Both the position numbers and the translations under genes were made by a program. Shown here piece after piece: positions 12,054-31,011 of a stretch of DNA of 35,320 nucleotides; positions within the stretch are counted from its first letter, which is position 1; each line of letters opens with the position of its first letter. Below the pieces are notes generated by a model that was given only the letters and a program-made list of their open reading frames with translations, did not search any database and was not told the DNA's origin. The stretch lies in contig JAHDCG010000061.1 of assembly GCA_020629965.1 (NCBI GenBank), positions 1 to 35,320 on the forward strand, given 5' to 3'. Origin of the DNA: Saprospiraceae bacterium (GTDB lineage Bacteria; Bacteroidota; Bacteroidia; Chitinophagales; Saprospiraceae).

Positions 12054-12111
12054 GATTAAAAATGCAGCGTAATTGAAATGTGTTTATCTTGCGGTAAATA
12101 AATTGAAGTTT

Positions 12112-13314
12112 ATGAAAATAACGTTGAAAGATTTCGGTCCGATACACCGGTTCGATTTTGATTTGAATAAGGACTTGCATTTGATTTACGGTGAAAATAA
12201 CATCGGGAAGTCGTGGGCGGTTAATGTAATTTATTGTTTTTTGAAGGGGTTAAAAGATGGTGCTCAAGACGTTGAAATTAACATTGGTCGTAAAAGCGAA
12301 CAGAAAAAAGAAAATTCTATAAACCGCAATTTGTCCGACTATATCGAAAATCTTATTTCATCAAATTTTATAAATAATTTTCATGGCTTTTTAGAAAATA
12401 CTTATACCAATCCTACCGGAAAAATTGAAATAAAAACTTTCGAGGGCTTGTTAATTCACGAAATTTCAAACAAAATCAGTATTAATTTAAAGCTGTCAAA
12501 AGAAGAGTATAATTTCCCTTTAAAAATATCAAAATATGCAGGAACCTTTATTTCCTTGAAGAAAAACGGCATCAGCAACATAGACTTCCTCCCCGCCTCT
12601 CGCTCGGGCCTATACGCGCCCCTCAGCGGCATGGGCGAAATCATGGCGGAGCTTTCACAAAAAAATCTCAAATCTTCTTTCAAATTACCGCGATTGTCAC
12701 AAGCGGTTTCCGATTATTTTTTAGATTTAATGTCCGAAGAAAAGAGCGATTTCGACTCTTTTCACACGACGAGTACGCAGGTAGAAGAAAAAATTCTCGG
12801 CGGTAAAATTTCGCTCGACCCTGCCACCAAGCGTATCTTTTTTACGGATAAAGCGGGCAGAAAATTTCCCGTTACCGAGACGGCGTCTATGATTTCGGAA
12901 TTGGCTCCTTTGGTGCTTATTTTGAAAAAAATCGAACGCAGGAATCTGCAAGAAAATGGTTTGAAATCTTTGTTGATTATCGAAGAACCGGAAGCGCATT
13001 TACACCCGAAAGCACAGGTTTTGCTTATGGAAATTTTCGGCGAATTGATAAAACACAATGTCAAAATCGTGATGACTTCGCACAGCAATTATATGTTTAA
13101 TAAGTTGAGTAATCTGCTGTTAGCGGGCGAGGTAAGCGCGGAGCAAACAGCTATTTACCATATGGAAATGACGGAAAAGGGCAGCGTAGTCAGAGACGAT
13201 ATGCAGGCAACGGCGGAAGGTGCGGAAGACCATAATTTTGCGGACACGGCGGCAGATTTATACGAAGAGCGCATAGAATTATATGACCGTTTAAACGCCG
13301 AAAATGCTGATTAA
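12112..13314 (+). CDS. AAA (ABC-type, RecF/OLD-like) ATPase, putative defence protein
   Basis: 400 residues from the ATG at 12112 (MKITLKDFGPIHRFDFDL, the usual opening of AAA_15/AAA_21 ATPases). An upstream in-frame start at 12073 adds 13 residues without family character. Walker A is GENNIGKS (27-34). LPASRSG (160-166) is a motif common in this ATPase group. Walker B is LLIIEEPEAHLHP with E291/E292, followed by an H-loop-like MTSHSNYMFNKL. No TOPRIM domain follows, unlike OLD nucleases. The next gene starts inside this one (11-bp overlap) and looks like a small nuclease, so the pair probably acts together. The first 450 bases are clearly more A+T-rich than the rest. A defence role is inferred; a DNA-repair role is possible. 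Confidence 0.82.
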   Translation: MKITLKDFGPIHRFDFDLNKDLHLIYGENNIGKSWAVNVIYCFLKGLKDGAQDVEINIGRKSEQKKENSINRNLSDYIENLISSNFINNFHGFLENTYTNPTGKIEIKTFEGLLIHEISNKISINLKLSKEEYNFPLKISKYAGTFISLKKNGISNIDFLPASRSGLYAPLSGMGEIMAELSQKNLKSSFKLPRLSQAVSDYFLDLMSEEKSDFDSFHTTSTQVEEKILGGKISLDPATKRIFFTDKAGRKFPVTETASMISELAPLVLILKKIERRNLQENGLKSLLIIEEPEAHLHPKAQVLLMEIFGELIKHNVKIVMTSHSNYMFNKLSNLLLAGEVSAEQTAIYHMEMTEKGSVVRDDMQATAEGAEDHNFADTAADLYEERIELYDRLNAENAD

Positions 13315-13828
13315 AGAACTGCGCGAACATCCGGAATTGCTCGATTTTATCGCCGACCGTTGCTGTGATGAGAAGGAAGAATTACGGGTTGATTTTTCCG
13401 GTGAAATTCCTGCTGAAGACTATTTGATTATCAAACCGGATGAATTTTACGCCTCGCTGAACTTAGGAACGGCAACGCCTAAATCTCCGGACTGCTTCAT
13501 CGTACAACGCTGCGCGGAAGGAAATTTTCACATTTATCTGATTGAATTTAAAAACTTTTCCAAACGGCGCAGTAGTTTGAAAGACGAAATTTTTGCAAAG
13601 TTCGAAACCTGTCTGCATGACTTTATGAGCGACCGATTTCGTGAGCAGTTTTATAACTTGGACTATGCCTTCAAAATTCAACCGATACTCGTTTTGGCGA
13701 ATGTGAACGACCGAAAAATCCGCAACTTTAAATTTGATTTTTTGTTGGCGTTGCCGCCGTTAAAATTCGGCAGCAAACGTTATGCAATTCGCGGAGAAGA
13801 ACCTCATCCGATGATAAATTCTTGTTAA
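13304..13828 (+). CDS. Small PD-(D/E)XK-like protein, putative nuclease partner of the ATPase
   Basis: 174 residues, not recognised as a named family. The central part has the layout of a PD-(D/E)XK core: SPDCFIVQR with D63, then a strand HIYLIEFKN with E81 and K83 (D-x17-E-x-K), then a long helix SLKDEIFAKFETCLHDF, and a hydrophobic strand KIQPILVLANV. The N-terminal 50 residues are acidic and helical (IKELREHPELLDFIADRC). The ATG overlaps the ATPase gene by 11 bp, so the two are translationally coupled. No signal peptide or membrane segment. By analogy with ATPase-nuclease defence pairs it would be the effector, but activity is inferred from one motif only. Confidence 0.6.
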   Translation: MLIKELREHPELLDFIADRCCDEKEELRVDFSGEIPAEDYLIIKPDEFYASLNLGTATPKSPDCFIVQRCAEGNFHIYLIEFKNFSKRRSSLKDEIFAKFETCLHDFMSDRFREQFYNLDYAFKIQPILVLANVNDRKIRNFKFDFLLALPPLKFGSKRYAIRGEEPHPMINSC

Positions 13829-13853: not shown

Positions 13854-14996
13854 TCACACTCTGTTAATATCTTTCTCCACCATTTGATAATTGATAAAAA
13901 GCAACAGCACCAACAGCAATAATGCACCCGCCTGATGCAGTGAACCGTACAAAACCGGCACTGAACCAAAGCAATTTATCACCGTCAAAACACCGAGTAA
14001 AAACTGAATTCCTAACATAATTATCAACAGTGTGTTAGCAGTTTTCAACTTAGCGGAAATATTATTCTTGCGCAAGCGTACAAAAAACCAAATAATTAAA
14101 CCCGACAGCAAATAAGCCGTCACACGGTGCACAATGTGTACCATTCCCTTGACATAACCCGACGGCTCGTAATTGACAAAATCCTGTAAATTCACATCCG
14201 TCGTAATCGCATTAACCAAACGTTCGCCCTCTACGGGCAGCGGGAAATAGGGATGCAGCAAACCCGCACGCATACCTGCCATCAGACCGCCAAAAATGAT
14301 TTGTACGCCGAGTACAAGCAAAATACCCCACGAAAATCTGCGCAGACGCGGCAAGTGTGTATCTGCTGTGACGGGTTGTTGTGCTTTAAGATAAGTCCAA
14401 AAAAGATAAGCAAACAGCGTGGTGGCGATAGACAAATGAATGACCAATTTGTACGCACTGACCCAAGTCCGGGTGTTGTCATTCAGACCGCTCGCCACCA
14501 TTATCCAACCGAAAGTCGCCGCCGCAATCGCCAATAAAATGACCACACCCAAGCGGCGCGCCAACCAACCCGGCATCCACTGTTTGTTTCTTCCGTTACC
14601 GGTAAAACGTTTTGCGACGAAAAACAGGAAAGGAAAAATGAAAACAAAACCCATTGTCCGCGCCCACAGCCGGTGAAAATATTCCCAAAAGAAAATAACC
14701 TTAAACTCGCTCATCGTCATGTCCGCGTGCAGCGTCTCGAATTGCTTTTTAGCGGCGACTTTGTACAGTTCAAAAGCCTCGTTCCACTCCGCAGCATTCA
14801 GCGGCGGCAGCGTGCCCTGAATGACCGCCCACTCGGTAATCGACAGACCGCTGTCCGTCAGCCGCGTCACACCGCCGATAACGACCTGAAAGAAAACCAT
14901 GACCACGCCGATGAGCAACCAATAGCGCACGGCTTTCGGAATGCGTCCGGGTGCAACGGTCGGACGGTCGATTTTTTCTCTTTGTAAAGTTTCCAT
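13854..14996 (-). CDS. ctaA: Heme A synthase, COX15/CtaA family
   Basis: 380 residues with about eight membrane segments. COX15-type motifs are in order: VVIGGVTRLTDSGLSITEW (39-57), FWEYFHRLWARTMGF with H108, KLVIHLSIATTLFAY, GMVHIVHRVTAYLLS and YGSLHQAGALLLL. These give the conserved histidines that bind the two hemes. The enzyme oxidises the C8 methyl of heme O to heme A for aa3-type cytochrome oxidases. The form with a long loop between helices 1 and 2 is the COX15-like type found in Bacteroidota and Proteobacteria. The gene stands alone and converges on the nuclease gene 25 bp away. The window holds no other oxidase gene. Confidence 0.95.
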   Translation of the reverse strand: METLQREKIDRPTVAPGRIPKAVRYWLLIGVVMVFFQVVIGGVTRLTDSGLSITEWAVIQGTLPPLNAAEWNEAFELYKVAAKKQFETLHADMTMSEFKVIFFWEYFHRLWARTMGFVFIFPFLFFVAKRFTGNGRNKQWMPGWLARRLGVVILLAIAAATFGWIMVASGLNDNTRTWVSAYKLVIHLSIATTLFAYLFWTYLKAQQPVTADTHLPRLRRFSWGILLVLGVQIIFGGLMAGMRAGLLHPYFPLPVEGERLVNAITTDVNLQDFVNYEPSGYVKGMVHIVHRVTAYLLSGLIIWFFVRLRKNNISAKLKTANTLLIIMLGIQFLLGVLTVINCFGSVPVLYGSLHQAGALLLLVLLLFINYQMVEKDINRV

Positions 14997-15166: not shown

Positions 15167-15284
15167 AGATGTGAGCGGCACAGGGCTTTGACAATAGTGT
15201 TGCATTTTACAAAAAATCGCAAACCGCGACCGGAAAAAACGCAAATTGTTTAATCGCCTTTTCTCAACCGATTTTCCGCTTAGG

Positions 15285-15725
15285 TAGTAATAAAAGATGA
15301 TTCAATAAATTTTAAAATAGATTCTTCATCATTAAGAGTGTTAATTCGTGGAGATAAAAATCGGAGAATCTTTTGATTCGTCGGTACTAAGATTCCCACA
15401 GCTTTTATCCACAGTTATTGCACCGCAGGAATCGCACAGAATCAAGCGAATCCGGACTTATACACAGTGCGTTAGCTTCTTTTTCAGAGCATAACTTTCC
15501 TTTTCCACAGCCCGAAGTTACCGGTTTCGGGTGTCGATAACGGGTGTTGATTTCCACGATTTCGGCGAAGGCGAACCGTGTTTCGATTTTCTTCGCAGCG
15601 GAATCTTAGTAACTGTGCATAACTCTCCTCGTCATCAACAAGTTGTTGTCACCGGAGCGTTGAGAAGTGATTCTGCTGAATCGCTGATTCCGAGTGCTTT
15701 TAAGTATGGTGATTTTTTATAATGT
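15285..15725. other. oriC: Probable chromosomal replication origin (oriC)
   Basis: Four matches to the DnaA box TTWTNCACA fall within 218 bp: TTATCCACA (15405-15413), TTATACACA (15458-15466), TTTTCCACA (15501-15509) and TGTGCATAA, the complement of TTATGCACA (15614-15622). A one-mismatch site TGTCGATAA lies at 15532-15540. By chance about one match per 16 kb is expected. An AT-rich stretch at 15285-15350 (TTCAATAAATTTTAAAATAG and flanks) could be the unwinding element. No credible gene covers the region. mnmG, a known oriC neighbour, starts 2 kb away, parS-like sites lie 15 kb away, and all genes from 16.1 to 33.4 kb point away from it. Skew was not calculated. Confidence 0.75.
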
Positions 15726-16097: not shown

Positions 16098-17135
16098 ATG
16101 AGTAACGAACCCACACCTTCCGAATATGCAATTTGGATAAAAAGTTTGAAAATGAAAGTTCAGAATGCTCAAAATAAAGTTGCTTTTACTATCAATTCTC
16201 AATTGTTGGAATTGTATTGGGAGTTGGGGCGGGAGTTGACTTCGCGTCAAAAAGACAGAGATTGGGGCAGTAATTATATCGACGCTGCGGCAAAAGATTT
16301 GCGGGAGTCTTTTCCGCACATCAAAGGATTTTCGAGAAGGAATTTATACGCAATGCGGCAGTGGTATCAGTTCTATGCGCAGGAATTTGAATTTGTGCCA
16401 CGCCGCGTGGCACAAATTCCGTGGGGACACAATCGGCTCATTATTTCAAAAACCAAAGACTTACAAGAGGCTGCTTTTTACGTTTCGGAAGTCATCGAAA
16501 ATGCGTGGGACAGGGATACTTTAGAAATTCAAATTGAAAACGACCTGTACCGAAAAGTCGGAAGAGCGGTCACTAATTTTGACCGAACCCTACCCGAAAA
16601 ACAATCGGAGTTGGCGAGTCAAGTATTGAAAGACCCTTACAATTTTGATTTTTTAGGTTTGGAAAACGATGCTTTAGAGAAAGCGGTGGAAGATGAATTG
16701 GTAAAAAATATCACGAAATTTCTGCTTGAATTGGGCAAAGGTTTTGCCTTTATGGGGCGACAGTACAAAATCGAAATCGGCGAAACAGATTACTTTATCG
16801 ACTTGTTATTTTACCATGTCGATTTGAGATGTTTTGTGGTAGTAGAGTTAAAAGCCGGAAAATTTAAACCCGAATACGCCGGTAAGCTGAATTTTTATCT
16901 GTCCGCAGTCGATACGCAAATCAAAAGTCCGACGGATAACCCGACTATCGGCATTCTTTTATGTAAAAAGAAAAATAAAATCGAGGCGGAATATTCTCTG
17001 CGTGATATGACCAAACCTATGGGCATAAGCGAATACAAATTGACGGAAATTATTCCCGAAAAAATTAAATCGAAACTGCCTTCGATTGAAGAATTGGAAA
17101 GGAAATTAGAGGAGAGCGAAACGGAGGAAGAGTAA
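16098..17135 (+). CDS. YhcG-family (DUF1016) PD-(D/E)XK nuclease
   Basis: 345 residues from the ATG at 16098. The open frame runs 60 codons further upstream, but that part lacks family features and lies in the origin flank. The N-terminal helical DUF1016 domain shows LYWELGRELTSRQ, WGSNYIDAAAKDLRESFP, FSRRNLYAMRQWYQFY and VAQIPWGHNRLIISK. The C-terminal nuclease domain has D235 (DYFIDLLFYH) and E250/K252 (FVVVELKAGKF). Members are predicted DNA nucleases linked to mobile and restriction loci; their role is not settled. A 31-bp perfect palindrome at 16389-16419 encodes the stretch before PWGHN, and a second copy lies just after the stop, inverted. This gene and the next make a small accessory block between the origin and mnmG. 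Confidence 0.9.
   Translation: MSNEPTPSEYAIWIKSLKMKVQNAQNKVAFTINSQLLELYWELGRELTSRQKDRDWGSNYIDAAAKDLRESFPHIKGFSRRNLYAMRQWYQFYAQEFEFVPRRVAQIPWGHNRLIISKTKDLQEAAFYVSEVIENAWDRDTLEIQIENDLYRKVGRAVTNFDRTLPEKQSELASQVLKDPYNFDFLGLENDALEKAVEDELVKNITKFLLELGKGFAFMGRQYKIEIGETDYFIDLLFYHVDLRCFVVVELKAGKFKPEYAGKLNFYLSAVDTQIKSPTDNPTIGILLCKKKNKIEAEYSLRDMTKPMGISEYKLTEIIPEKIKSKLPSIEELERKLEESETEEE
16382..16419. repeat. 38-bp palindromic element, copy 1, inside the YhcG gene
   Basis: GAATTTGTGCCACG, CCG, CGTGGCACAAATTC form a perfect 14-bp stem (16389-16419), preceded by GGAATTT. In frame it encodes part of EFEFVPRRVAQIP. The reverse complement of 17152-17189 matches all 38 bases except two. Confidence 0.8.
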
Positions 17136-17487: not shown

Positions 17488-17568
17488 AGTACGCATAACT
17501 ACCTCAACCCCATGATAAAATTTGACGAGCAAAACGGAAAATAGATTTCGTGATGTAAAAGCAGGTAC

Positions 17569-17603
17569 ACCCGTCCACCGTCAGTCGTGTACCGTCAACC
17601 GTA
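17569..17603. repeat. Degenerate heptamer repeat E
   Basis: Five period-7 units directly before mnmG: ACCCGTC CACCGTC AGTCGTG TACCGTC AACCGTA. The mnmG frame stays open through it, so starts upstream of 17612 are artefacts. Confidence 0.6.
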
Positions 17604-17611
17604 AAAAAATT

Positions 17612-19477
17612 ATGTTCCAAAAATACGACACCATAGTAGTAGGCGCAGGTCACGCCGGTTGCGAAGCCGCAGTCGCCGCTGCCAATATGGGCAGCAAGGT
17701 TTTGTTGGCAACGATGAACATGAATACCATTGCCCAAATGTCCTGCAACCCCGCCATGGGCGGCGTGGCAAAAGGGCAAATTGTGCGTGAAATCGACGCG
17801 CTCGGCGGCTATTCCGGTATTGTGACCGACGAGACGATGATACAGTTTCGGATGCTCAACCGCTCTAAAGGACCGGCGATGTGGTCGCCGCGCGCGCAAA
17901 GTGACCGCGTGCGTTTCGGCGAAAAATGGCGCATGATGTTGGAGGCGCATCCGAATATTGATTTTTGGCAGGAAATGGTGACGGGGCTGATTGTCAAAGA
18001 CGGTCGCTGCTGCGGTGTGCGCACCGGATTGGGCTTGGAAATCGAAAGTAAATCCGTCATTTTGACCAACGGCACCTTTCTCAACGGACTTATCCACATC
18101 GGTGAAAAACAGTTTGGCGGCGGACGTGCGGGTGAGCGGGCAGCCACCGGCATCACCGCGCAACTTGTCGAATTGGGCTTTGAAGCAGGACGCATGAAAA
18201 CCGGAACGCCGCCGCGTGTGGACGGTCGATCCCTCGATTGGAGTGCCATGGAAACGCAGCCCGGCGACGAAAATCCGGTCGGTTTTTCTTACACCAAAAC
18301 TCCGGAGTTGACCGACCAAATTCCCTGTCACGTCACCTACACCAACGAAGAAGTGCACGACATTTTGCGCACGGGTTTCGACCGCTCGCCGATGTTTAAC
18401 GGTCGCATTCAGGGACTCGGACCGCGCTACTGTCCGAGTATCGAGGACAAAATAGAGCGTTTTTCCGACCGCAATCGCCACCAACTTTTTGTGGAGCCGG
18501 AAGGTCGCAATACCTGTGAAATTTACGTCAACGGCTTCTCTTCTTCCTTACCGGAAGATGTGCAGTTTAAAGCGATGCGTAAAATTCGCGGCTTTGAAAA
18601 TGCCAAGATGTTTCGTCCCGGCTACGCGATTGAATACGACTTTTTTCAACCGACCCAACTGCGCGCTAATTTGGAAACGCGCCTGATTGATAATCTCTTT
18701 TTCGCCGGTCAAATCAACGGCACCACCGGCTACGAAGAGGCGGGCTGTCAGGGACTCATGGCGGGCATCAATGCGCATCTGAAAATCAACGAAGATGACC
18801 CTTTCATCATCAAACGCTCGGAAGGTTACATCGGTGTTTTGATTGATGATTTGGTGAATAAAGGCACCAAAGAACCCTACCGCATGTTTACCTCGCGGGC
18901 GGAATATCGCATCTTGCTGCGTCAGGATAATGCAGACATTCGCCTTACGCCTTTGGCAGTCAAGCTGGGTATGCAGGGCATGGAAAAGCGGATGCAGCGC
19001 GTGGAAGAAAAGCAGGCGGCGGTGAAAGAAATCGCGCGTTTTTTCCGTGATTTCAGCGTCGAACCCGATTTGATTAACAGTTATTTAGCGGAAAATAAAT
19101 CGGCGACTATTTCGCAGAAAGTCAAGGCAAAAAGCATTCTCGGCAGACCTCATATCGACATGGAAGGTATGAAAAATGTGCTGCCGGACCTGCATACTTT
19201 CTTAGAAAAATACGACCCGGAAACGCAGCTCCTCGCCGAAACCAATCTGAAGTACGAAGGCTACATTCGCCGCGAAAAAGAAATGGTGGATAAAATGAAC
19301 CGCTTGGAGCAAGTGCGTTTGCACGAGAATTTTGATTATAAAGGATTGGGTTCACTGTCGAATGAGGCGCGCGAAAAACTGACGGCACTGAAGCCGCGCA
19401 CGGTGGGTCAGGCGAGTCGGATATCGGGGGTTTCGCCTTCGGATATTTCGGTTTTGTTGGTGCATGTGGGGCGGTGA
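17612..19477 (+). CDS. mnmG: tRNA uridine-5-carboxymethylaminomethyl modification enzyme MnmG
   Basis: 621 residues, full length. The ATG at 17612 gives the family start MFQKYDTIVVGAGHAGCEAA, whose GxGxxG binds FAD. GGVAKGQIVREIDALGG, TGTFLNGLIHIGEKQ, GTPPRVDGRSLDW, GQINGTTGYEEAGCQGLMAGINA and the C-terminal helical ISGVSPSDISVLLVHV follow. With MnmE it installs the cmnm5 (or nm5) group on the wobble uridine of several tRNAs, using FAD, NADH and a folate donor. In many bacteria this gene, formerly gidA, borders the replication origin, which agrees with the DnaA-box cluster 2 kb upstream. No mnmE is present here. Confidence 0.97.
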   Translation: MFQKYDTIVVGAGHAGCEAAVAAANMGSKVLLATMNMNTIAQMSCNPAMGGVAKGQIVREIDALGGYSGIVTDETMIQFRMLNRSKGPAMWSPRAQSDRVRFGEKWRMMLEAHPNIDFWQEMVTGLIVKDGRCCGVRTGLGLEIESKSVILTNGTFLNGLIHIGEKQFGGGRAGERAATGITAQLVELGFEAGRMKTGTPPRVDGRSLDWSAMETQPGDENPVGFSYTKTPELTDQIPCHVTYTNEEVHDILRTGFDRSPMFNGRIQGLGPRYCPSIEDKIERFSDRNRHQLFVEPEGRNTCEIYVNGFSSSLPEDVQFKAMRKIRGFENAKMFRPGYAIEYDFFQPTQLRANLETRLIDNLFFAGQINGTTGYEEAGCQGLMAGINAHLKINEDDPFIIKRSEGYIGVLIDDLVNKGTKEPYRMFTSRAEYRILLRQDNADIRLTPLAVKLGMQGMEKRMQRVEEKQAAVKEIARFFRDFSVEPDLINSYLAENKSATISQKVKAKSILGRPHIDMEGMKNVLPDLHTFLEKYDPETQLLAETNLKYEGYIRREKEMVDKMNRLEQVRLHENFDYKGLGSLSNEAREKLTALKPRTVGQASRISGVSPSDISVLLVHVGR

Positions 19478-21381: not shown

Positions 21382-21402
21382 TGTGGAAAATGGTGTGGAT
21401 AA
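21382..21402 (-). other. Pair of DnaA boxes
   Basis: Two overlap-free matches on the minus strand, 12 bp apart: TGTGGAAAA (21382-21390, complement of TTTTCCACA) and TGTGGATAA (21394-21402, complement of TTATCCACA), just after the flippase stop. They could be a titration or accessory DnaA site belonging to the origin region, or regulate the competence genes downstream. Confidence 0.5.
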
Positions 21403-22826: not shown

Positions 22827-24938
22827 ATGAAAAGCCTGCGTCCCGTTCCGTTTTTTCGTCTGATTTTGCCTTTTATCGGCGGCATTTTGTGCGCGATGTA
22901 TGCGGGCGTAAAAGTGGAATTTCTGCTGTGGACGTTGCCGATTATTTTCGTTATTTCTATTTTAATTTCTCGCCTTAAAGGTCACTTTTCCAAACGTTGG
23001 ATGTACGGCGTGCTCCTGACTTTGCTCTTTTTTCTCTTAGGTTTTATCCGCTACAATCAGACCTACGAATTAAACTCCGCACAGCATTTTTCTCATCAAA
23101 TTCTCTCCAAAACCTCGGTATTTGAAGCGGAAATAACCGACATGCCCGTCGTGAAAAACGAGCGGCTAAAGGTGCAATTAAAAATCCTCAAAACGGGAAG
23201 TGAAAATAAAGAGTCCGTACCCGCAGACGGCAACCTTTTAGCCTACCTCGACCTCGACTCTCTCAGCCAAAATCTCTCCTACGGCGACCGCATATTCTTC
23301 CGAGGAAAACCGACGCAAATCAGACTTCCGGGTAATCCCGTTGCTTTTGATTATCGAAAATATCTGCACACGCAAAATATTCATTATCAACTGTTTATCT
23401 CGGAAAGCGATTGGGTGAAAAGTGCCGAAACCGGCGGTTATTACGTGCAGCGACAAGCATTTAAAATGCGGAAAAAATTTCTCAAAATATTGCGAAAATA
23501 CTTGTCCGACAGCGAGACTTTTTCTGTCGGTTCGGCTCTGATTTTAGGCTATAAAGACGAAATGAATGAAGACATCCGCACCGCTTACGCGCAGACCGGG
23601 GCGATGCACGTTTTGGCGGTTTCGGGTCTGCACGTCGGTCTGATTTATTTGATAATTTCCAAGCTTTTCGACCTGCTTTTCGGCACTTATCGCCGTAAAA
23701 TGCGCTTCATTAAAGCCCTCACCTGCCTCTTCGGTTTGTGGCTTTTTGCGATGCTGACCGGTATGTCGCCCTCGGTCATGCGCGCCTCCGTAATGTTTTC
23801 GGTCATCATCGTCGCCGGTTTGGTGCGGCGTAATAATCGGATTTATAACTCGCTTTGTATCTCCGCCCTTTTTCTGCTGTTACTCAATCCGTTCATGCTC
23901 TTGAGCGTCGGATTTCAACTTTCCTATCTTGCCGTCACGGGTATCGTTTACTTTCAGCCGAGGATTTATGCTTTGTTGATTTGTGAAAATAAATTTGCCG
24001 ACTTTCTTTGGCAGTTGTGTTCGGTTTCGATTGCCGCGCAGTTGGTGACTCTGCCTTTGAGTCTGTATTATTTTCATCAATTTCCGGTTTACTTTTGGGC
24101 ATCGGGTTTGGTGGTCGTGCCGGCTGCTTCGCTGATTTTGAGCGGCGGTTTGCTGTTATTTTTCTTTGAAACGCTGTTTTCTGCTTTTGCGCCTTTCATT
24201 GCTGCGGCAATCGGTTTTCTGCTCTATTGGCTCATTTTTACCGTAAATTTTTGCATTAAAGCCCTGCAAATTATTCCCGGCAGCGTCATTGAGGGAATAT
24301 GGATTTCCGCTTTTATGATGTTCATTTTATACGTCATCATGCTTTTTCTCGTCAAAGGCATCAACACCCGCAAAGGAAAATACCTCACGGCAGGAACGGC
24401 AATTTTAGCTTTGGTTTTCATCCTGACGGCGTTTGAAAAAAGTAAGTTTATCAACAATCGGCAGATAATAGTGTACGATGTTTACAAAAATTCGCTGATA
24501 GATTTTATGGGTAACGGGACATCTTACTCCTTGATTAGCAATGACTTAAAAGAAAAAAGCTACGGTTTTGCCGTGAAAAATTATCATTATGCACAGGATG
24601 TGAATAAGTCCGAAGTTGTCAACATCGACATCTCCGATTATAATTCTCCTGCTCTTTTTGTGAAGGAAAATTTCGTACAATTTTTTGACAAAAAACTCTA
24701 TCTGCTTGACAAAATGCCGCAGGGAAATAAAAAGCAAATCGACCTTGATTTCCTTATCGTGCGCAATAACCCTTACTTGAATTTGGAAGAAGTCGGAAAA
24801 TATTTTCGCTGCGATAAGATAATTTTCGATAACTCCAACAGCCGTTATAAAGTCGAGGATTGGAAAAAATATTGTGAGGAAAATGCAATAGATTATCACG
24901 TCGTTTCGGAGAGCGGCGCGTGGATTTTTAAATTCTAA
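22827..24938 (+). CDS. comEC: ComEC/Rec2 family competence protein
   Basis: 703 residues. Several N-terminal membrane helices lead into a periplasmic DUF4131/OB-like domain (about 60-200; VFEAEITDMPVVKNERLKVQLKIL). The Competence domain follows (about 225-500) with ALILGYKDEMNEDIRTAYAQTGAMHVLAVSGLHVGLIY, MLTGMSPSVMRASVMF and VGFQLSYLAVTGI. ComEC forms the inner-membrane channel for single-stranded DNA. The C-terminal 180 residues show no HxHxDH, so the metallo-beta-lactamase nuclease domain seen in Gram-positive ComEC is absent or degenerate, as is usual in this phylum. It is 5 bp from dprA and 43 bp from the ComEA-like gene. Confidence 0.93.
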   Translation: MKSLRPVPFFRLILPFIGGILCAMYAGVKVEFLLWTLPIIFVISILISRLKGHFSKRWMYGVLLTLLFFLLGFIRYNQTYELNSAQHFSHQILSKTSVFEAEITDMPVVKNERLKVQLKILKTGSENKESVPADGNLLAYLDLDSLSQNLSYGDRIFFRGKPTQIRLPGNPVAFDYRKYLHTQNIHYQLFISESDWVKSAETGGYYVQRQAFKMRKKFLKILRKYLSDSETFSVGSALILGYKDEMNEDIRTAYAQTGAMHVLAVSGLHVGLIYLIISKLFDLLFGTYRRKMRFIKALTCLFGLWLFAMLTGMSPSVMRASVMFSVIIVAGLVRRNNRIYNSLCISALFLLLLNPFMLLSVGFQLSYLAVTGIVYFQPRIYALLICENKFADFLWQLCSVSIAAQLVTLPLSLYYFHQFPVYFWASGLVVVPAASLILSGGLLLFFFETLFSAFAPFIAAAIGFLLYWLIFTVNFCIKALQIIPGSVIEGIWISAFMMFILYVIMLFLVKGINTRKGKYLTAGTAILALVFILTAFEKSKFINNRQIIVYDVYKNSLIDFMGNGTSYSLISNDLKEKSYGFAVKNYHYAQDVNKSEVVNIDISDYNSPALFVKENFVQFFDKKLYLLDKMPQGNKKQIDLDFLIVRNNPYLNLEEVGKYFRCDKIIFDNSNSRYKVEDWKKYCEENAIDYHVVSESGAWIFKF

Positions 24939-29662: not shown

Positions 29663-30961
29663 ATGATACTATACTCAACCAAAAACAGAGAAAATACTGC
29701 TGATTTAAAAACGGCGGTAATGAAAGGCTTACCCGACGATAACGGTCTGTATATGCCGAGCGAAATACCGCAACTACCGCAGGAATTTTTAGACAATTTA
29801 AGCGATTTTTCTTTTCAGGAAATCGCTTTTACTGTTTCTAAGCATCTGCTGCAAGGTGCAATACCCGAGGAGGAATTACAGAAAATCATTGAAAACAGCA
29901 TCACATTTCCCGCGCCCGTAGTTTCGCTCGACGACAAAATGTCCGTTTTAGAATTATTTCACGGCCCTTCTTTAGCTTTTAAAGATTTCGGTGCGCGTTT
30001 TATGTCGCAGTTGATGAGTTATTTTAACCGTGAAGAAGAGAAGGAGTTAGTTATTTTGGTAGCGACATCGGGAGATACAGGCGGCGCGGTTGCTGCGGGA
30101 TTCTACAAAACTCCGGGTATCAAAGTCGTTATCCTCTACCCTTCGGGCAAAGTCAGTCATTTGCAGGAAAAACAATTGACTACTTTAGGTTATAATATTA
30201 CTGCTTTAGAAGTGGACGGAACCTTTGATGACTGTCAAGCATTGGTGAAAAAAGCATTTTTGGATAGGGAATTGAATGAAAAAATCAGGTTGAGTTCCGC
30301 TAATTCTATCAACATTGCGCGTTTAATTCCACAATCCTTTTACTATTTTGAGGCTTTTAAGCAGTTGAAAAATAAGGAAAACGTAGTATTTTGTATTCCT
30401 TCGGGCAACTTTGGTAACTTGACCGCAGGCATTTTGGCTAAAAAAATGGGCTTACCCGTACATCAATTCATTGCTGCTACCAACGCAAATGATATTGTTC
30501 CGAGTTATTTAAAGTCAGGAAAGTACGAACCGCGCCCTTCCGTACCTACCTTGAGTAATGCTATGGATGTCGGGAGTCCTTCTAACTTTGCCCGCATGAA
30601 TAATCTGTATAGTTCCACGTGGAACATTATGAAGGATGACATTCAAGGCTTTGCTTATGACGATGCGACGACTGAAAAGGCAGTTTTGGAAGTTAAAAAT
30701 AAATTCAATTACACGATCGACCCGCACGGCGCAGTAGGCTATTTAGCCTTAAAAGAGTACCAAAACGACTATCCAAATACGCACGGAGTCATTTTAGAAA
30801 CGGCGCATCCTGCTAAATTTTTGCCCGATGTCGAGCGAATTTTGGGTAGAAAGATAGAAGTACCGCAACGATTGGCTGAATTATCCGATAAAAAAAAGGA
30901 GTCAATCGAATGCAATACCGAATACAAACCCTTTAAAGAGTGGCTTTTGAGCCATCATTAA
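29663..30961 (+). CDS. thrC: Threonine synthase
   Basis: 432 residues, the long PLP-dependent type (TS of E. coli and fungi). N-terminal MILYSTKNRENTADLKTAVMKGLPDDNGLYMP. The PLP lysine is K107 in GPSLAFKDFGARF, followed by VATSGDTGGAVAAGF (phosphate loop) and later IPSGNFGNLTAGILAKKMGLP. It converts O-phosphohomoserine to threonine. Last gene of the thr operon, with a terminator directly after. A parS-like palindrome lies within the coding region at 30612-30626, encoding SSTWNI at residues 317-322. Confidence 0.97.
   Translation: MILYSTKNRENTADLKTAVMKGLPDDNGLYMPSEIPQLPQEFLDNLSDFSFQEIAFTVSKHLLQGAIPEEELQKIIENSITFPAPVVSLDDKMSVLELFHGPSLAFKDFGARFMSQLMSYFNREEEKELVILVATSGDTGGAVAAGFYKTPGIKVVILYPSGKVSHLQEKQLTTLGYNITALEVDGTFDDCQALVKKAFLDRELNEKIRLSSANSINIARLIPQSFYYFEAFKQLKNKENVVFCIPSGNFGNLTAGILAKKMGLPVHQFIAATNANDIVPSYLKSGKYEPRPSVPTLSNAMDVGSPSNFARMNNLYSSTWNIMKDDIQGFAYDDATTEKAVLEVKNKFNYTIDPHGAVGYLALKEYQNDYPNTHGVILETAHPAKFLPDVERILGRKIEVPQRLAELSDKKKESIECNTEYKPFKEWLLSHH
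30612..30626. promoter_or_regulatory. parS: parS-like site inside thrC
   Basis: GTTCCACGTGGAAC (30612-30625) plus a following A: 15 of 16 bases of the palindrome TGTTCCACGTGGAACA. The core CACGTG with flanking GTTYC/GRAAC is the chromosomal ParB-binding site. It lies 385 bp from a perfect copy. Confidence 0.75.
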
Positions 30962-30995: not shown

Positions 30996-31011
30996 TGTTC
31001 CACGTGGAACA
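30996..31011. promoter_or_regulatory. parS: parS site, perfect 16-bp palindrome
   Basis: TGTTCCACGTGGAACA is fully palindromic and matches the chromosomal parS consensus TGTTTCACGTGAAACA except for the symmetric T-to-C/A-to-G change, a known variant position. ParB binds such sites, loads as a CTP-dependent clamp, spreads, and recruits SMC for origin segregation. It lies between the thr terminator and the M1 peptidase promoter, 15 kb from the putative oriC. parA and parB are not in the window. Confidence 0.85.

Follow-up and report, generated by a model that had tools for sequence, protein, structure and literature searches.

The question raised by this locus is whether a tight group of DnaA boxes, on a contig that does not carry dnaA, marks the chromosomal replication origin of Saprospiraceae bacterium. 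The window, meaning the whole stretch of DNA that was analysed, is 35,320 nucleotides long and makes up the entire contig C157 of a draft genome of 291 contigs and 6,522,079 bp. Our answer is that oriC very probably lies here, at about 15284-15622. The four exact matches to TTWTNCACA that the original prediction had reported are found exactly as placed and span 218 bp (Table 1). Given that this pattern occurs 734 times in the genome, 0.025 matches are expected per 218 bp, where 0.015 had been put forward earlier. At the genome's own density about 0.002 four-box clusters this tight are expected in the whole 6.5 Mb (Poisson). The window as a whole holds 15 matches against 3.8 ± 2.3 in shuffles, and none of 100 shuffles reaches 15. 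Similarly, this 35-kb contig carries three of the 32 perfect TTATCCACA sites in the genome, where 0.17 would be expected, and every other contig has at most one. The cluster, which is thus beyond chance, lies in non-coding DNA as had been claimed: there is no open reading frame of at least 80 amino acids from the start of ctaA (14996) to 15918, the upstream limit of the next frame, whose likely ATG is at 16098, and an Rfam scan and a tRNA scan of the window found nothing. The AT-rich flank adjoining the boxes was also seen correctly, but the trio-like element that overlaps it had not been singled out.

Table 1. Genes and sequence features at and around the DnaA-box cluster, in window coordinates.
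Feature	Position	Strand	Remarks
ctaA/COX15, heme A synthase	13854..14996	-	PF02628, E 1e-76; transcribed away from the origin
AT-rich stretch, putative DNA unwinding element	15284..15326	.	84% AT; AT-rich in relatives too
Conserved unwinding-like element, whole model match	15298..15367	+	just left of the boxes; R1, 36 bits
Three DnaA-trio-like triplets, CAT CAT TAA	15327..15335	+	central adenines 15328, 15331, 15334
Trio-proximal degenerate DnaA box TGTTAATTC	15339..15347	-	4 mismatches to TGTGGATAA; aligned with canonical TGTGGATAA of G057
Second, tandem degenerate box GTGGAGATAA	15348..15357	-	3 mismatches; aligned with GTGGATAA of G057 and G126
DnaA box TTATCCACA, perfect consensus	15405..15413	+	pattern match
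DnaA box TTATACACA	15458..15466	+	pattern match
DnaA box TTTTCCACA	15501..15509	+	pattern match
DnaA box TTATGCACA	15614..15622	-	pattern match
DUF1016/YhcG PDDEXK nuclease gene	16098..17135	+	PF06250, PF17761
mnmG	17522-19477		
Single perfect DnaA box TTATCCACA within mnmG	18090..18098	+	pattern match
Satellite DnaA-box pair (TTTTCCACA, TTATCCACA)	21382..21402	-	12 bp apart
Satellite DnaA-box pair in comEC-like ORF	24587..24607		12 bp apart, opposite strands
parS-like site	30611..30626	+	one mismatch
parS-like palindrome TGTTCCACGTGGAACA	30996..31011	+	perfect

Which of the neighbouring genes belongs to the origin becomes apparent when related genomes are compared. The proximity of mnmG had been offered as evidence, but none of about 110 related mnmG loci has a DnaA-box cluster beside it, and we therefore rejected mnmG as the conserved neighbour. 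In one relative (G057) mnmG is 1.3 Mb from the box cluster. It was correct that dnaA is not beside the cluster; it is located on contig C271, and the surrounding 2.9 kb there contain no DnaA boxes, for which reason we rejected the dnaA locus as the origin. The conserved neighbour of the origin is ctaA. In a survey of 53 ctaA loci of the family, boxes are densest in the 500 bp immediately upstream of ctaA (3.8/kb) and fall to 1.6/kb in the 500 bp after that. Elsewhere the density is mostly 0.05-0.3/kb, and at a distance of a few kb roughly 0.1-0.2/kb. Control patterns give no comparable peak, the reversed pattern reaching only 0.3/kb. At least one box is found within 700 bp at 48 of the 53 loci and at least two at 33. 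A lack of conservation in relatives had been named as a refutation of the origin; instead, clusters upstream of ctaA occur throughout the family. A second density peak (2.4 and 1.5/kb) appears in the opposite direction, between 1500 and 500 bp, which places it inside and just behind ctaA. This second group, which is absent from the window, often consists of two boxes 12 bp apart, and pairs with this spacing, which the satellite pairs of the window share, adjoin ctaA in many relatives. The boxes within ctaA fall at variable residues (the numbers are small), so that conservation of the protein is no obvious reason for their presence. G057 (4,345,237 bp) has 15 boxes upstream of ctaA and 10 further ones about 6 kb off on the other side. 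That second cluster, some 6.5-6.9 kb beyond ctaA at locus L195, adjoins a perfect parS-like palindrome TGTTCCACGTGGAACA.

The most diagnostic part of the locus is the trio-like unwinding element at 15298-15367. It was found by aligning ctaA upstream regions by eye, followed by an iterated position matrix, and is present without gaps in nearly all the ctaA upstream loci that were aligned. Its consensus is made up of an AT-rich stretch, TATCATCATCAG, 3 bp and TGTTAATTTGTnGATAAAAA. Columns 35, 38 and 41, which follow one another at an exact 3-nt spacing, have an adenine in 43, 46 and 48 respectively of 48 distinct related elements, and G47 and T48 are kept in all of them. The trio-proximal box of G057 is canonical and tandem (TGTGGATAAGTGGATAA); it is degenerate in most other relatives, and the window counterpart of the G057 tandem box is TGTTAATTCGTGGAGATAA, with the trios CAT CAT TAA. 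Twelve of the 48 distinct elements have a proximal box with at most two mismatches to TGTGGATAA, for example G057 with 0. Another trio-like run, TAG-TAA-TAA at 15285-15293, was dropped, because no box lies nearer to it than about 110 bp and the alignment with relatives falls on the other element.

The position of the element was followed with R1, a sequence model for which 34 relatives were used and the window was left out. In the bacterium's own genome R1 gives a single significant match, the one in the window (E 2.6e-8), the next having an E-value of 0.2. At E 5e-4 or better it matches 98 of 150 family genomes. Linkage can be assessed in the 91 comparable family genomes with a ctaA match in the ctaA search. 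The element lies 12-489 bp upstream of ctaA, always in the same orientation, in 88 of these, and on another contig than ctaA in the remaining three. R1 derives from ctaA loci, which makes its training genomes circular evidence for this linkage; 55 of the 88 linked genomes are independent of the training. Most elements in genomes that lack a ctaA match adjoin a diverged COX15 gene, as seen by Pfam in the four that were tested and by eye in others. Neither ctaA nor the element was found in G015, a genome of the same genus that is 89% complete. Outside the family, within the same class, the element stands next to other genes, several times with DnaA boxes nearby. Two loci of the same order (L271 and L273, family f2) have an origin-like element between nadA-like and PpiD-like genes, and another (L270, family f16) has one beside an acyl-CoA synthetase-like gene, all these names being read from sequence. 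Since its neighbours change from one family to another, it is the origin, not ctaA, that the element marks. R1 matches in other families weaker than about E 0.01 were left out, as most resemble chance AT-rich matches.

The skew had been expected to turn at the cluster. This is the case in a relative, G062, whose 7.5 Mb are in one contig with a five-box cluster directly upstream of ctaA: in the 420 kb sampled, the cumulative G-C minimum is at 2,349,196, within the box cluster (2,349,010-2,349,377). The skew is -0.030 on its left side and +0.029 on its right, with p 0.00005 by permutation. Within the window itself, a 35-kb contig of a 291-contig draft, neither GC skew nor third-position skew turns at 15.4 kb. 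The coarse skew of G057, flat and rearranged, does not point to the box cluster in particular. The oriC reading of the original prediction is strongly supported, with the boxes at ctaA across the family and the minimum in the homologous cluster of G062 both in its favour.

Other readings of the same data have to be weighed. The boxes and the element could form a DnaA-dependent regulatory region for transcription of ctaA, and so of heme A synthase, with no origin at all. That the element stays so close upstream of ctaA in 88 genomes is promoter-like, but up to 15 boxes in one cluster, the trio periodicity next to an AT-rich stretch, the skew minimum of G062 at the same place, and the elements with boxes beside unrelated genes in other families all speak against it, and we find this reading highly improbable. 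There is likewise very little chance that the locus is a secondary DnaA-binding site of the datA or DARS kind, which titrates or reactivates DnaA while the true origin is elsewhere. The window does have only four boxes in its cluster, two satellite pairs of boxes (21.4 and 24.6 kb), and a skew of its own that gives no support to an origin. However, any other contig carries at most one perfect box, the genome has the element at this place alone, and the homologous locus of G062 is the skew minimum.

A further alternative keeps the locus as oriC and questions the element, in that unwinding would do without trios and a degenerate box and the element would be kept for something else, such as the binding of another protein or helicase loading. 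The degeneracy of the proximal box in most relatives, with only a quarter of the distinct elements (12/48) within two mismatches, could be taken in this sense. Against this, the near-invariant adenines keep their exact spacing, and they adjoin a spacer and a box site, the latter being fully canonical in G057, so that we think another role of the element unlikely. The preferred reading, a chromosomal oriC with an unwinding-like element, rests on what is observed: the boxes, the element, which is unique in the genome and is linked to ctaA across the family, and the skew minimum of G062.

Comparison with known origins helps to place this element. The basal unwinding system (BUS) comprises a DnaA box, a spacer and trios of the form 3'-NAN-5' with a conserved central adenine, and the published rule asks for at least three such trios and for a DnaA box with at most two mismatches within 16 bp of them (PMC8287927). 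The window has the three trios, CAT CAT TAA at 15327-15335, but its boxes have four mismatches at 15339-15347 and three at the tandem site. Because no box there comes within the two mismatches of the rule, we describe the element as working like a BUS and do not file it as one. The AT-rich stretch, the run of at least three trios, the short spacer, the tandem box position and the further boxes are shared with BUS origins such as that of Bacillus subtilis (PMC8287927), and the box-adjacent trio in most relatives is 3'-GAT/GAC-5', as in the BUS (PMC8287927). In contrast, the trio-proximal box in Saprospiraceae is mostly degenerate while that of the BUS is near consensus, the distal trios are mostly 3'-TAC-5' in place of GAT, and the origin adjoins ctaA and not dnaA. 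Bacteroidetes origins are usually far from dnaA (PMC4755523), and predicted Bacteroidota origins, such as that of Prevotella intermedia (PMC4755523; DoriC), likewise have a box cluster at a skew transition with dnaA elsewhere. What goes beyond these in Saprospiraceae is the ctaA neighbour together with an unwinding-like element conserved across the family. We found no earlier link of ctaA to oriC, and no family-wide conserved unwinding-like element, in the open-access papers that were searched.

The wider surroundings of the cluster also agree with the original prediction in that the forward strand carries all the main genes between 16.1 and 33.4 kb, which point away, and parS-like sites, one of them perfect, lie 15 kb off. 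On the side of the origin opposite ctaA, the usual genes in relatives are one for SRAP (abasic-site protein), present at 22 of 43 loci, and one for a D-Tyr-tRNA deacylase. The YhcG-type nuclease gene of the window occupies the place of the SRAP gene, and the bacterium's own SRAP gene is on contig C127. Directly behind ctaA, at 12073-13828, there is an AAA_15/OLD-like ATPase gene, with a weak match to the retron Eco8 effector, and after it an ORF of 174 aa that belongs to no family. The two occupy the site of the second box group of relatives and resemble a defence-type insertion next to the origin. At one related locus (L229) a comEC-like gene adjoins the box pair beside ctaA, and its position there compared with that in the window suggests that the surroundings of the origin in the window may have been rearranged.

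From the layout of the oriC and from the published BUS we infer how initiation might proceed, from DnaA binding and the order of assembly through melting to the loading of helicases and ParB. DnaA would bind the four boxes at 15405-15622 and extend to the left over the tandem low-affinity site (15339-15357), from where its filament would capture the single strand with the trio repeats at 15327-15335. The AT-rich stretch at 15284-15326 would then melt, helicases would load there and two forks would leave, the leftward one first passing ctaA and the rightward one the YhcG/mnmG side, while ParB would load at parS 15 kb to the right. A more specific possibility, which we consider rather unlikely, is that Saprospiraceae have a lineage-specific unwinding module, with the proximal box replaced by a conserved sequence of about TGTKRATTYGT, and a bipartite origin enclosing ctaA, whose second box group would lie inside and behind ctaA in many members and would have been lost in this genome.

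The element, a sequence of about 70 bp that usually matches once in a genome, and the gene ctaA can serve as markers for the origin of a large and mostly uncultured family. With them origins can be placed in draft or fragmentary Saprospiraceae genomes, and growth rates can be read from coverage. The series from canonical to degenerate proximal boxes in relatives is also a natural test of which parts of the module DnaA needs.
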